Positions 4,851 through 28,251 of a stretch of 64,000 bases of DNA are shown in pieces. The DNA is taken from positions 1 through 64,000 of IMG/VR virus record IMGVR_UViG_3300032093_000087. One strand, written 5' to 3'. The DNA is from a virus. Each line of letters opens with the position of its first letter. The stretch's first letter is position 1. Both the position numbers and the translations under genes were made by a program. Under the pieces are notes generated by a model. The model did not search any database, had not been told where the DNA came from, and worked only from the letters and a program-made list of their open reading frames with translations.

Positions 4851-6212
4851 TTAATAAGTCATACCACCTTCTTCCTCCTCATCATACTCGTCATCATCGT
4901 CATCACCACCTTCTTTGTATTGTTTATACTGTTCTTTAGCTTGTTGTAAAATCTCAACAAACTTTCTAGAAGCTTTTTGATTGTCATCTCTATCATTGGA
5001 TACCACATTAGATATGATGTCACGTAAGAATGATTCAGCTGGTACACTATATAAAATTTGTTCAAAAAATGGGTAATATTTTTTACCTTCAGGATCTGTT
5101 GTTAATTCATCCGGTAATAATAATCTTATTTTTCTAACTAATTCAGCACCAACACGGAAATTCATTGGTTCGTTTGTCATTGTGTCGGTTTGACCAATAA
5201 CATCTTGAGCCATACCAAGATCCATATCAGTCCATTGAGCTCTTGACGTAACTATTGAAAACGTTTTAAATAATTCGTGTAGTAAAATTGGAAAGATTAC
5301 ACCGTTAGCGAAATATGTGTCGTTTTCTTCATTTTCTTCACCCCCACCTTCATCTTCATCCTCATCTTCATCACCATCCATTTTACCAGCGGATCCAGCT
5401 GCGTTACCACCTAGAGCTTCAATAAGATCCTCATCGGTGAAATACATTAAGTCATTAGCGGCCATAATTTTATTATACAATGGATATAAAGAAGGATCAA
5501 TTTCATCCAATCTATCCTTATACATTTGATAAGCAAATTGACCACGTTTACCCTTACCCTGGATAATCGCGTTTATTACATTTCTTTTCTCAATCTCAAG
5601 TTGTCTTTGTTCATCCGGAGTTAACTCATCAATATCAAATGAGAAGTTTTTAGGTAATTCCAATTTTTTCATTTCTTTTGACTTCATCTGAAATTGATTC
5701 GGGTCAATTCTTTGTTCACCTAAAAATGTTAGTACGTTGATGAAATCAAACTTATAAACAACACCACCCTCTTTTCTTTCTTTGGATACAACGCCCTCTT
5801 CTACAGCTTCTTCCATTGTCATGTTTGACGGTATCCACCCTTCTTCCTTTGCCGCTATCTCCATAGCTAAATCTCTAAGTTCCTCCCTATAACTAGGTTC
5901 GATACCCATAACCTGTCTTACGGACATCATTTGTTCCATTTGGATCGCTCTTTTAACTTGTGGATTGGTTATGTTTTCTTGGGTACCGTAGTATCTTTTA
6001 ACATAATCAACAATTTCTTTAAATCGTTTTTCTGTCATTTTCTCAACGTCACCAACACCACCTTTAAACCCTCTATTTTTAGCGTAAATTCCTTCAGGAT
6101 CCTCGATTCTTTGTTGGGTCCTTGGGTGCATTCTTTCTGGGTAATCACCGTACTCCACGGGAGCCTCGTTTACTATTTTTCTTATTAATCTTTCTAAATT
6201 TCTATTTCCCAT
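4851..6212 (-). CDS. Leader-bearing head-region protein, acidic
   Basis: The 453-residue product begins MGNRNLERLIRKIVNEAP, a variant of the shared leader ending in hydrophobic-x-E (V-N-E). The body is helical and charged; an Asp/Glu/Gly tract lies near residues 280-297 and another at the C-terminus. The start codon overlaps the stop of the gene before it (TAATG), so translation is probably coupled. Placement between scaffold-like genes and TerL points to a core or head protein. No enzyme motif is visible and no family is recognised. Confidence 0.75.
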   Translation of the reverse strand: MGNRNLERLIRKIVNEAPVEYGDYPERMHPRTQQRIEDPEGIYAKNRGFKGGVGDVEKMTEKRFKEIVDYVKRYYGTQENITNPQVKRAIQMEQMMSVRQVMGIEPSYREELRDLAMEIAAKEEGWIPSNMTMEEAVEEGVVSKERKEGGVVYKFDFINVLTFLGEQRIDPNQFQMKSKEMKKLELPKNFSFDIDELTPDEQRQLEIEKRNVINAIIQGKGKRGQFAYQMYKDRLDEIDPSLYPLYNKIMAANDLMYFTDEDLIEALGGNAAGSAGKMDGDEDEDEDEGGGEENEENDTYFANGVIFPILLHELFKTFSIVTSRAQWTDMDLGMAQDVIGQTDTMTNEPMNFRVGAELVRKIRLLLPDELTTDPEGKKYYPFFEQILYSVPAESFLRDIISNVVSNDRDDNQKASRKFVEILQQAKEQYKQYKEGGDDDDDEYDEEEEGGMTY

Positions 6213-10071: not shown

Positions 10072-12129
10072 ATGATTGAATATGTAGATGGTGATGATAA
10101 GAACAAGAAAAAATCCGAAAGTGGTACACCTGTTCTAGACAACTTCAGTAAAGATTTAATAAAACTAGCTGAACAAGGTAAGTTAGATCCAGTTATAGGT
10201 CGACAAAGTGAAATTTTTAGAATAGCTCAAATTTTATCAAGAAGAAAAAAGAATAACCCAATTATTATTGGTGAACCAGGAGCTGGAAAAACAGCTATTG
10301 TTGAGGGGTTAGCTATGATGATTCATAATGGTGAGTGTCCAAAAAATTTAATGGACAAACGAATAGTATCATTAGATATTAACTCTATTGTAGCTGGTAC
10401 AAAATACCGTGGACAATTTGAGGAAAGAATGAAGGTAATTATCGAGGAATTACAAAACACAAACAATATAATCCTTTTTATTGATGAAATCCACACCATG
10501 GTTGGTGCTGGGAATAGCTCCGGATCCCTGGACGCTTCAAATATCTTTAAACCAGCGTTATCAAGGGGGGAGATTCAATGTATTGGAGCCACAACTCTAG
10601 ATGAATATCGAAAACATTTTGAAAAAGACGGTGCTTTGGAGAGAAGATTCCAAAAAGTTATTGTTGACCCTTCATCAAAAGACGAAACATTTGAAATTTT
10701 AAAGAGGAGTAAGTCAAAATATGAAGAACACCACAAAGTACATTATTCCGATGAATCACTTTGGTTGTGTGTTGAGTTAGCTGACAGATATATCACCGAT
10801 CGTGAGTTCCCGGATAAAGCTTTTGACATCCTGGATGAGGTTGGGTCAAGAATGCAGATAGACATTAAATTACCAGAAGTAATTGAAAAACTAAAACAGG
10901 AAGCTCAGGACATTAAAAAGGAAAAAGTTGATGTGATTAAAAAACAAAATTACGAACAAGCTGCTGAACTTAGGGATCGTGAAAGAAGCGTGGTATTAAA
11001 ACTAGAGGATGAAAAGAAAAAATTTGAACTTGAGTTATTAAGTAGTAAACGTGGAATTCCGGAAGATTTGATTTATGAGGTGGTTTCTAATATGACTAAA
11101 ATTCCGGTTAGTAAATTAAACGTTGATGAAAAAAACTCATTGGTTAGTTTGGAGTCTTCTTTAAATTTAAAGGTTATTGGACAAGAGGAAGCTGTATCTA
11201 AAATATCAAAATCTATCCGTAGAAACCGTATCGGAATTAAAGACCCGAATAGACCTATCGGTTCATTTATATTCTTAGGTTCTACTGGTGTTGGTAAAAC
11301 ATTTTTAGCTAAACAATTAGCTAAAGAAATATTTGGTAGTGAAGATAGTTTAATTCGTGTTGATATGTCTGAATACCAGGAAAAACACACAATTTCGAGG
11401 TTGATTGGATCACCTCCAGGATACGTTGGTCACGAAGAGGGGGGTCAATTAACAGAACAAGTTAAAAATAAACCATATTCTGTAATATTATTTGATGAAA
11501 TTGAGAAAGCTAATAAAGACATATTCTCAACCCTATTACAAATGTTGGATGACGGTCACATAACAGATAGTTTAGGTAGAAAGATTAATTTTAAAAACTG
11601 TTTAATTATTATGACATCAAACATTGGTGTTAAAAAATTACAAGATTTTGGTACCGGTGTAGGGTTTAAAAGTAATATTAGTGAAACAATCCAGGAAGAA
11701 CACAAACGTGACGTATTAAAAAAGGAATTGAGTAAGTTTTTCGCTCCCGAGTTTTTAAATAGGATTGACGATGTAATCATATTCAACTCACTTAAAAAAG
11801 ATCATGTTGATAAAATTGTAAAACTTGAAATTGATAAGTTAATCGAGAGATTGAAGTCCATGAAATACAATTTTACGTATGAGAATTCTGTAACTGAGAA
11901 AATATCTGAGGTCGGGTTTGATGAACAATTCGGTGCTAGACCAATTAAACGAGCTATTCAGGATAAGATTGAGGATCTAATATCTGAGAAGATATTAACT
12001 GGTGATGTTACCGAGGATAGAGAGTATATGTTGTTTGTCAAAAAAGAAAACGATGAATTGGTAATTGATTTGGAAGAAAGGTCAAAACCAGAACCAAAAA
12101 AACGTGGTAGAAAGAAAAAGGAGGATTAA
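10072..12129 (+). CDS. ClpC/ClpA-type double AAA+ unfoldase lacking the N-domain
   Basis: This 685-residue protein is a Hsp100 unfoldase. The first AAA+ domain has Walker A GEPGAGKT (residues 67-74) and Walker B LFIDEIH; a short UVR-like helical stretch (VDVIKKQNYEQAAELRDRE) follows. The second AAA+ domain has Walker A GSTGVGKT (about 402-409), LFDEIEKA and the sensor segment IIMTSNIG. The Clp N-terminal repeat domain is missing: the AAA+ part begins near residue 20. After the second Walker B lies GTGVGFKSN, resembling the ClpP-docking loop of ClpC, which suggests docking to host ClpP. No clpP gene is seen in the window. The C-terminus is basic (RGRKKKED). Confidence 0.93.
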   Translation: MIEYVDGDDKNKKKSESGTPVLDNFSKDLIKLAEQGKLDPVIGRQSEIFRIAQILSRRKKNNPIIIGEPGAGKTAIVEGLAMMIHNGECPKNLMDKRIVSLDINSIVAGTKYRGQFEERMKVIIEELQNTNNIILFIDEIHTMVGAGNSSGSLDASNIFKPALSRGEIQCIGATTLDEYRKHFEKDGALERRFQKVIVDPSSKDETFEILKRSKSKYEEHHKVHYSDESLWLCVELADRYITDREFPDKAFDILDEVGSRMQIDIKLPEVIEKLKQEAQDIKKEKVDVIKKQNYEQAAELRDRERSVVLKLEDEKKKFELELLSSKRGIPEDLIYEVVSNMTKIPVSKLNVDEKNSLVSLESSLNLKVIGQEEAVSKISKSIRRNRIGIKDPNRPIGSFIFLGSTGVGKTFLAKQLAKEIFGSEDSLIRVDMSEYQEKHTISRLIGSPPGYVGHEEGGQLTEQVKNKPYSVILFDEIEKANKDIFSTLLQMLDDGHITDSLGRKINFKNCLIIMTSNIGVKKLQDFGTGVGFKSNISETIQEEHKRDVLKKELSKFFAPEFLNRIDDVIIFNSLKKDHVDKIVKLEIDKLIERLKSMKYNFTYENSVTEKISEVGFDEQFGARPIKRAIQDKIEDLISEKILTGDVTEDREYMLFVKKENDELVIDLEERSKPEPKKRGRKKKED

Positions 12130-15124: not shown

Positions 15125-15155
15125 TTGTATATATGTAGGAATATACGTATATTTG
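15125..15155 (+). promoter_or_regulatory. Bacteroidota-type promoter (tmRNA)
   Basis: TTG at 15125-15127, a 20-nt spacer, then TATATTTG at 15148-15155. The expected transcription start is about 15 nt before the mature tmRNA end, leaving a short 5-prime leader for RNase P to remove. Confidence 0.8.
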
Positions 15156-15176
15156 TACATAGTTCTTTGATAATAT

Positions 15177-15561
15177 GGGGGTGTTTATGGATTTGACAGG
15201 TATTGGCTGGAGAATAAGGGCATGTGGGGACTGAATTAATCCCCTTAAAAACTGATTCAGAAAACAACTGGCAATGTGCTAAACAAAATGGAAACTCTTG
15301 GTTTACTAAGAGGTTCTGAAGTTACTGTAGCTTAAGAAGTTTACGGAAACGGGGGGTCGGTGGACATACAACCTAGCAACAGAAGTCTTTACAAAGGTGG
15401 ATCACGACTGAACCCAAAATCGAGTCGTCCATTGGTTGTTGATTAACGATGGTGAAGAACAAATTAACTATTTTGGGGTATTAGAAAATACCAACCTAAA
15501 CATGTAGTCCTTACCTTACGGGGTATTATGGACGAGGGTTCGAGACCCTCCACCTCCACCA
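15177..15561 (+). ncRNA. ssrA: tmRNA (transfer-messenger RNA)
   Basis: The 385-nt RNA rescues stalled ribosomes by acting as tRNA-Ala then mRNA. The acceptor stem pairs GGGGGTG (15177-15183) with CACCTCC (15551-15557), followed by an encoded ACCA end. The T-arm GAGGG-TTCGAGA-CCCTC precedes it, and the 5-prime TATGGATTTGACAGG matches the tmRNA signature. The best tag frame starts with GGC at 15270 and stops at TAA 15333-15335. It encodes 21 residues beginning GNVLNKM and ending GSEVTVA, much longer than the usual ALAA-type tag. Gly as resume residue agrees with Bacteroidota tmRNA. Own promoter and terminator are present. Confidence 0.93.
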
Positions 15562-15656: not shown

Positions 15657-15821
15657 TTACTTAACAGTAACAGAATCTTTTACAGTTGATGTAGCTGTAC
15701 TATCTGAAACTTCAGTGGTTGCGTCTTGAGTCGCGTTTCCAGTTGATGTGTTTTCACCACAAGATGTCATTAGAGAAATTGTCGTGAAAACCACGAAGGA
15801 AATTAAGAATAATCTTTTCAT
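15657..15821 (-). CDS. Small lipoprotein (54 aa)
   Basis: The frame encodes MKRLFLISFVVFTTISLMTSCG followed by a Thr/Ser/Asp-rich tail. The hydrophobic segment and lipobox (LMTSC) indicate a signal-peptidase-II lipoprotein with Cys at residue 21. The acceptor tail is short and unstructured. It sits between the tmRNA and the giant RNA. Phage lipoproteins can act in superinfection exclusion, but nothing in this sequence proves that. Confidence 0.75.
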   Translation of the reverse strand: MKRLFLISFVVFTTISLMTSCGENTSTGNATQDATTEVSDSTATSTVKDSVTVK

Positions 15822-15896: not shown

Positions 15897-15923
15897 AAAA
15901 AAAAAGACAACTAATTGTTGTCT
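15897..15923 (-). terminator. Terminator of the giant noncoding RNA
   Basis: On the minus strand AGACAAC-AATTA-GTTGTCT is a perfect 7-bp hairpin followed by at least eight T. No minus-strand gene other than the RNA from 16866 could use it. Confidence 0.85.
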
Positions 15924-16866
15924 AAGTTATTTTTCCAGTAAAATTTAAAAAAAGGTTGAGATTACACCTGTTATTGAGAACCTTTGGAAGGATTATTGTT
16001 TCCCTTCGTATCCACCATCTTTTGAACGGTATTTCTCAGTGACGGTTATTTAAGTGAACCACTCTTTGAGGTTTGATCTACTCTCCTATTACTTAACTCT
16101 CTCCGAGAATGCCTTCCCAGTTGATCCTTGCGAGATTAGAGGTCTTTGGTAAAAATACACTCAGACTTGGGGTCTTTATGTGCAACGAACAACTCGTTAC
16201 TAGGTAGTCACCTTTCGACCAAACCTGACGGACACTTTTCCTTTCTGTAGTTTAATAATAGATTTATTACTTTCCATAAAGTTTTTGTGTCGTGGATTGT
16301 GAAAGTAGTGGTCCGTCTCGAGATTCATTATCTTTTGGACAACGAAATACCCAACTACCCTCTGAAATGTCCCCATTTCCATACTTTAAGACTACTTCGA
16401 AACAAATCCCTTGGTAGAGATTTATTAAGGACAATTTCAGCACCACCTGTTTGTTGTCATACCTTTCGGTTTTAAGTATCCTTTAATATTGGAATACGTA
16501 ATTGTAAATTTGGATAACCTACTTCTCACATAATTCCTACGGGTTATTCCTATTGGGGTTCCCCCCTCAATCAGATGACCCACATCACCTAATCATAAGA
16601 TCACTTTCCCTACACCGTTGGCCTCGGTACTAAAGATCTTATGGTATCCCGCTTGTGTACTCGACCTCGATAATCCGAAGACTAACAAGACGCAAATCAA
16701 TTTGACAGTTGACTCACTTTATCCCACTTTCGTGGTTTATTTAACGACTATACACAGCCAATTATCGTTTATCAGTTCCTGGTGTTTGTCCCGAAGGATC
16801 TAACCGTACTCCTGAACGGATAATTTCTTAATTTTCAAAGAACGTTTCGGTCATTTCCGAATTCTG
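15897..16866 (-). ncRNA. Giant structured noncoding RNA (~970 nt), possibly GOLLD/ROOL-like or new
   Basis: This 970-nt stretch has no convincing frame on either strand but has its own promoter and a strong terminator on the minus strand. Read on the minus strand it holds many compact hairpins capped by stable tetraloops: CCAC-GAAA-GTGG, GGGG-GGAA-CCCC, ACC-GAAA-GGT, GAAATG-GGGA-CATTTC, TCC-TTCG-GGA and AGTC-TTCG-GATT. There are also longer pairings such as ATAAGATC with GATCTTAT, enclosing ACCG/CGGT. Giant phage RNAs such as GOLLD and ROOL share this size, tetraloop content and neighbourhood to tRNA/tmRNA genes. I cannot match a known consensus by eye. Confidence 0.8.
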
Positions 16867-16869
16867 ATA

Positions 16870-16900
16870 CAAATATAATATGAATTTTTCTTATTGTCAA
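16870..16900 (-). promoter_or_regulatory. Bacteroidota-type promoter (giant RNA)
   Basis: Minus strand TTG (complement of 16898-16900), a 20-nt spacer and TATATTTG (complement of 16870-16877). Predicted start is near 16864-16866. Spacing and -7 box are identical to those of the tmRNA promoter. Confidence 0.8.
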
Positions 16901-24878: not shown

Positions 24879-24911
24879 ATCTTTTCATGACCAATATTTC
24901 AAAGAACATTA

Positions 24912-24942
24912 CAAAATTAAGTATAATTTATTGTATTGTCAA
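24912..24942 (-). promoter_or_regulatory. Bacteroidota-type promoter of tRNA operon
   Basis: Minus-strand TTG, 20-nt spacer, TAATTTTG (TAnnTTTG). Start would be about 30 nt before the first tRNA. Confidence 0.75.
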
Positions 24943-28155: not shown

Positions 28156-28177
28156 TGTTATGGGTTTATTTAGTTAG

Positions 28178-28251
28178 TGATCCCGGATGGATTCGAACCA
28201 TCGACCTACTGCTTAGAAGGCAGTTGCTCTATCCAGCTGAGCTACGGGACC
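28178..28251 (-). tRNA. tRNA-Arg (UCU)
   Basis: Acceptor GGTCCCG / CGGGATC, D-arm AGCTCAGCTGGATAGAGC, anticodon arm ACTGC-CTTCTAA-GCAGT (UCU), T-arm GATGG-TTCGAAT-CCATC. Decodes AGA/AGG, frequent in this AT-rich genome; separate from the main cluster. Confidence 0.94.

Follow-up and report, generated by a model that had tools for sequence, protein, structure and literature searches.

GOLLD RNAs are giant RNAs of more than 800 nucleotides (nt) that are found in phages and prophages, often near transfer RNA (tRNA) genes, and carry a structured, less conserved 5' region; rising expression in lytic growth is also counted among their traits. One of them, env-38, was solved by cryo-electron microscopy as a hollow cage of 14 subunits with the counterpart of the linker disordered inside it (PMC12286853). 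ROOL is likewise a giant phage and prophage RNA that forms cages (PMC12286853). A precedent of another kind is the leader of ribosomal RNA (rRNA) operons: in E. coli its boxA is a binding site of NusB-S10, and both the maturation of rRNA and antitermination in a reporter depend on it (PMC4807359). We analyzed positions 1 to 64,000 of the IMG/VR virus record IMGVR_UViG_3300032093_000087 (the window) and in it an element at 15897-16866 on the minus strand, which an original prediction made from the letters alone had described as a giant structured RNA beside a transfer-messenger RNA (tmRNA). We confidently identify this element as a GOLLD RNA. Considered as a whole, the locus is best explained, with a probability of about 0.6, as a GOLLD transcribed by the host, preceded by a leader that recruits Nus factors, belonging to a stable-RNA regulon and forming a cage that acts on translation.

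Identity and extent of the RNA

By sequence, the interval forms a non-coding transcription unit that has a promoter and terminator to itself and is extensively structured. Using cmscan, Rfam RF02032 (GOLLD) matched over its complete model (positions 1-416) at 328.5 bits against a cut-off of 150. GOLLD was the sole Rfam family above cut-off at 15897-16866 and occurred once in the 70.6-kb record. ROOL had no match at the locus even at E up to 1, which separates the window RNA from that family, and weak matches nearby (EF3314_EF3315 and others) fell below cut-off and were taken as chance. The original prediction had proposed this covariance-model check and had left the choice between the GOLLD/ROOL group and a new class of similar size; membership of the group stood, as GOLLD, while the full-length match led us to reject the new class. 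The absence of the 5' half from the Rfam model would suit a giant RNA unrelated to GOLLD, but the 3' half matches at full length and the 5' half co-occurs with it in at least 96 loci, leaving that reading with almost no probability. About 505 nt lie upstream of the matched part and covary, as expected of the less conserved 5' region of a GOLLD. The phage setting near tRNA genes was also found, with portal and terminase matches in the window, which identify the record as a tailed phage, and a tRNA array 7-8 kb away.

The features predicted for the unit were borne out. It ends in a perfect hairpin, GACAAC-N5-GTTGTC, followed by nine T, with a second U7 run at 15947-15953 immediately after the last GOLLD hairpin. 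It is preceded by the N20-spaced host-type promoter (TTG-N20-TATATTTG, 16900-16870), a pattern that we take from general literature to be Bacteroidota-type; because of this promoter type the host is probably a Bacteroidota. GC content is 38.1% compared to 33.7% and 30.5% in the flanks. The claimed lack of a plausible reading frame held as well: the longest run between stops spans 74 codons, against an average of 80 in shuffles, and of five small open reading frames (ORFs) none was open in more than 16 of 41 homologues and four in at most six. These small ORFs are what a protein-coding or degenerate gene could draw on, but no frame is kept across homologues and compensatory base-pair changes occur throughout, so that the proposed test of codon-like against compensatory change came out in favor of RNA and a coding origin is exceedingly improbable.

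Relatives were gathered from viral contigs by a conserved 3' pattern, giving at least 117 loci. Among the loci compared, the 5' half of the window RNA aligned in at least 96, and from these comes an alignment of a domain missing from the Rfam model, the 5' domain. The closest relatives among the matches listed were 95.7 and 92.7% identical in comparison with the window RNA. Two huge-phage genomes (642 and 635 kb) also have the 5' half. Acinetobacter phages had only the 3' half in common by BLAST, with a weak 5' covariance-model match in one of them (22.9 bits, E 0.011). Scanning bacterial and archaeal genomes with a pattern of 17 fixed bases gave 30 matches, roughly what chance alone would produce, and none of them aligned to GOLLD. 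One contig (G017) carries two GOLLD genes about 16 kb apart (loci L045 and L121). In many relatives (L014, L066, L107 and others) a tRNA-Met lies about 10-20 nt past the GOLLD 3' end, where the window has its terminator, and in a distant relative (L116) a tRNA at 5866-5937 lies within the GOLLD match, probably in the linker.

Conserved structure

The predicted minimum free energy was -252 kcal/mol compared to -226 +/- 7.9 kcal/mol for shuffles (z -3.3; 0/20 shuffles equally stable). Covariation was assessed in 42 non-redundant full-length homologues against a null of 20 alignments simulated on the same tree. In total 41 column pairs, in both halves and with pseudoknots included, reached or exceeded the highest null value, and nearly all were compatible with standard pairs. 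The exception was a triple coupling of columns 219/291/330 (window 16651, 16579 and 16540) in which 291:330 is not a standard pair, possibly a base triple or a lineage effect. A model of the 5' multi-branch core also matched the huge phages (635-642 kb) and gave a weak match in an Acinetobacter phage. The hairpins with GNRA or UUCG loops that had been reported exist, and homologues keep the CGCAA loop and two GAAA loops. A reported long-range helix fared less well: the window and the relative nearest to it have UAUCAG/CUGAUA (positions 1-6 with 95-100), which is not conserved further out.

Four non-nested contacts were kept in 40-42 of the 42 sequences and outperformed arms dealt among sequences. 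These helices occur in 3-18 distinct paired versions, and pairing was lost when the arms were slid. Helix 1 was fully paired in 41/42 with 7 distinct helices (arm shuffles at most 27) and the cross-domain helix 2 in 42/42 with 5 (arm shuffles at most 34), shuffle figures that are supportive and are not probabilities because the shuffles do not preserve relatedness. For helix 2 the coupling 289:576 was also significant; the available part of PMC12286853 makes no mention of this helix.

Contacts probably shared with the GOLLD cage

The window RNA has in common with env-38 the whole conserved 3' domain, a separate 5' domain, an A/U-rich linker, a putative L20 contact, self-complementary loops that probably correspond to L21a and L21b, and a phage location near tRNA genes (PMC12286853). 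It differs in its 5' part (about 505 nt compared to 420 nt) and in having its own Bacteroidota promoter, a boxA-like leader and a tmRNA neighbor. The loop names used here were assigned from the text of that report and not from coordinates. The L20 coupling (630:700) covaries perfectly, C-G in 24 homologues and G-C in 18, a result compatible alike with pairing within one chain or between chains. L21a switches from GC to CG in two relatives, as reported for the contact between cage half-shells (PMC12286853). Because one covarying contact matches an intermolecular contact of the published 14-mer, a cage is the likeliest form of this RNA, and on homology and conserved contacts we consider such assembly quite likely.

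Promoter and boxA-like leader

The GOLLD promoter often occurs in 2-3 tandem copies in homologues. Up to three Bacteroidota-type promoters about 100 nt apart were seen before GOLLD (L014, L066 and L105, for example). Promoter spacers often contain a covarying inverted repeat, a candidate operator (17/77 compared to 7.5 in shuffles, maximum 13); this is suggestive, confounded by relatedness and absent in the window.

Located 25 nt past the GOLLD promoter is a boxA-like element, GTTCTTTGA, directly preceded by a hairpin whose stems have a different sequence in relatives and still pair. A boxA-like match was present in 39/48 non-redundant GOLLD leaders compared to 0.3 expected, counting one (L119) that stands in a different context and may be chance. 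No boxA was found upstream of GOLLD in Acinetobacter phages. GTTCTTTGA occurs five times in the window (0.85 expected). Three of the 18 Bacteroidota-type promoter matches in the window precede stable-RNA units, those of tmRNA, GOLLD and the tRNA array, and GTTCTTTGA lies within 30 nt after exactly these three and after 0/15 others. A separate tRNA-Arg (28177-28251) has neither a promoter match nor the element directly upstream. Among 20 tmRNA leaders, 15 contain GTTCTTT[GA]A and the remaining five GTTATTTGA. As a feature of the sequence the boxA-like leader is real, while the mechanism attached to it is putative. In a limited literature collection, in which no search paired GOLLD with boxA directly, no paper naming GOLLD came up under boxA, and with a collection of that size the leader can be called new only provisionally.

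In the E. coli rrnA leader a hairpin precedes GCTCTTTAACA, in the order seen in the GOLLD leader. In both systems a long untranslated RNA carries, shortly past its promoter, a hairpin and then G[CT]TCTTT[AG]A, the setting expected of a boxA. The window element differs in preceding phage GOLLD, tmRNA and tRNA units and not rRNA, with protein binding putative. The Flavobacterium rRNA version also differs, being GTTCATTGACATATTG in the 23S leaders of 25/28 internal transcribed spacers, and strict GTTCTTTGA was found in 0/24 Flavobacterium 16S leaders.

The element could instead be a processing or initial-transcribed-region signal of phage stable RNAs in front of a genuine GOLLD, with no part in antitermination. 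Its place shortly before the mature tmRNA 5' end in tmRNA leaders fits such a signal, as does L009, a relative counted among the 39, where it is flanked directly by a tRNA and by GOLLD and no promoter was matched. We consider this rather unlikely, since the boxA-like sequence, its place after a hairpin as in rRNA leaders and a spacing from promoters that varies (about 4 to >130 nt) all fit an RNA element read by a protein.

Proximity of tmRNA and GOLLD

The adjoining tmRNA of the original prediction was confirmed by Rfam (RF00023); the recurrence of this neighborhood in relatives and the boxA-like leader are both new to the present analysis. In 30 of 31 contigs with both RNAs above cut-off the tmRNA lies within 6.4 kb of GOLLD (175 kb in the exception), a raw count, uncorrected for the frequency of tmRNA in phages, that includes many fragmentary contigs. 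In a first set of 23 contigs the 22 near cases were all convergent, and 19 of these, including the window, have a common gene block around the pair and for that reason represent few independent events. Eight further contigs held one convergent and seven same-strand pairs with the tmRNA on either side, giving three relative arrangements overall. The proximity could simply reflect gene order passed down within one phage clade, the two RNAs being functionally unconnected, given the conserved block of Clp-like ATPase, M20 peptidase, F0, tmRNA and GOLLD. That account comes somewhat short of an even chance: in more distant relatives the pair stays close while order and orientation differ, and the two are spaced by anything from 137 to 6316 nt, with inserts that vary.

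Proposed mechanism

Under the stable-RNA explanation, host RNA polymerase would start near 16864 at the dedicated Bacteroidota-type promoter. The leader hairpin and boxA-like element would recruit the host NusB-S10 (rRNA) complex, which may sustain transcription over about 0.95 kb of untranslated RNA and aid folding during synthesis, roles that we infer by analogy with E. coli boxA. Because the same leader signal precedes all three, tmRNA, GOLLD and the tRNA array may form one stable-RNA regulon, and the boxA leaders together with tmRNA proximity point to a phage regulon that would borrow the host Nus complex. In the mature RNA the 5' domain would form a cap and the 3' domain a ring, joined by the linker, and the RNA would self-assemble, probably into a 14-subunit hollow cage as in another GOLLD, with the linker inside. 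During lytic growth the translation machinery, be it tRNA, tmRNA or ribosomes, would be the most likely target of the cage, although any specific cargo or function is doubtful. The leader suggests how a phage might make about 1 kb of structured, untranslated RNA, an account that is testable, and being common to the tmRNA and tRNA units it would tie GOLLD to translation by regulation as well as by position. More tentative, and on balance unlikely, is a wider scheme in which Bacteroidota phages run a boxA-bearing regulon on the host rRNA antitermination and folding complex, with GOLLD and tmRNA jointly acting on stalled or captured ribosomes.

Several points weigh against the stable-RNA explanation. 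The solved cage is that of another GOLLD, with a 5' domain only putatively equivalent. Promoter use and boxA function are predicted from sequence. The tmRNA and tRNA-array elements lie only 4-7 nt past the -7 box and so may coincide with the first transcribed nucleotides. The host-type (Flavobacterium) rRNA boxA differs at 1-2 positions, for a host itself assigned from promoter type, and the 16S form matched in only 13/25 Flavobacterium leaders with a looser motif set after viewing the sequences, making that comparison post hoc. In the two huge phages that carry GOLLD, no tmRNA scored above cut-off. Lastly, GOLLD was reportedly dispensable for phage production in a Lactobacillus brevis prophage (cited in PMC7567579).

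Table 1. Positions of GOLLD, its leader and related features in the window.
Feature	Coordinates	Strand	Evidence
GOLLD conserved 3' domain	15953-16362	-	Rfam RF02032, 328.5 bits, model 1-416
GOLLD 5' domain, outside Rfam model	16363-16769	-	at least 96 loci align in 5' half; covariation
Intrinsic terminator	15897-15922	-	sequence
Bacteroidota-type promoter, TTG-N20-TANNTTTG, sequence TTGACAATAAGAAAAATTCATATTATATTTG	16870-16900	-	pattern upstream of 76/89 homologues
Leader hairpin UUCGG-N6-CCGAA, immediately before boxA, boxB-like position	16846-16861	-	sequence
boxA-like element GTTCTTTGA	16835-16843	-	leader motif counts
5' multi-branch core	16538-16653	-	25/33 pairs changed on both sides
Pseudoknot/kissing helix 1, 16751-16755 with 16655-16659	16655-16755	-	covariation
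Cross-domain helix 2, loop of 5' domain (16580-16583) with 5' flank of linker (16292-16295)	16292-16583	-	covariation
Pseudoknot 3, 16312-16316 with 16228-16232	16228-16316	-	40/42 fully paired, 18 distinct helices
Variable A/U-rich linker	16243-16291	-	31-58 nt in relatives
L20 loop 16168-16171 with linker 3' flank 16240-16241; putative match to intermolecular bridge B7	16168-16241	-	42/42 paired
L21a (CGCAA) and L21b (GGCA) loops, self-complementary GC, as in half-shell bridges B8/B9	16110-16132	-	conservation; PMC12286853
tmRNA, convergent with GOLLD, 391 nt from its 3' domain	15177-15561	+	Rfam RF00023, 108 bits
tmRNA promoter 15125-15155 and boxA-like GTTCTTTGA 15162-15170	15125-15170	+	sequence
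tRNA-array promoter 24912-24942 and boxA-like GTTCTTTGA 24899-24907	24899-24942	-	sequence

Neighboring genes

The tmRNA of the window and of relatives (L154-L173) encodes an unusual 21-amino acid tag, GNVLNKMETLGLLRGSEVTVA, that is conserved in related phages. The E. coli tmRNA tag has an LAA-type end; tags of these phages end in such sequences as VTVA, VSVA, VAVA, VVVA or AVAA and are not LAA-type. A Clp-type AAA+ unfoldase gene (10072-12129, plus strand; PHROG ATP-dependent protease) lies in the conserved block beside the tmRNA, and its product might act on tmRNA-tagged proteins. Between tmRNA and GOLLD is a small lipoprotein-like ORF of 54 amino acids (15657-15821, minus strand; family F12) that is found in several relatives.
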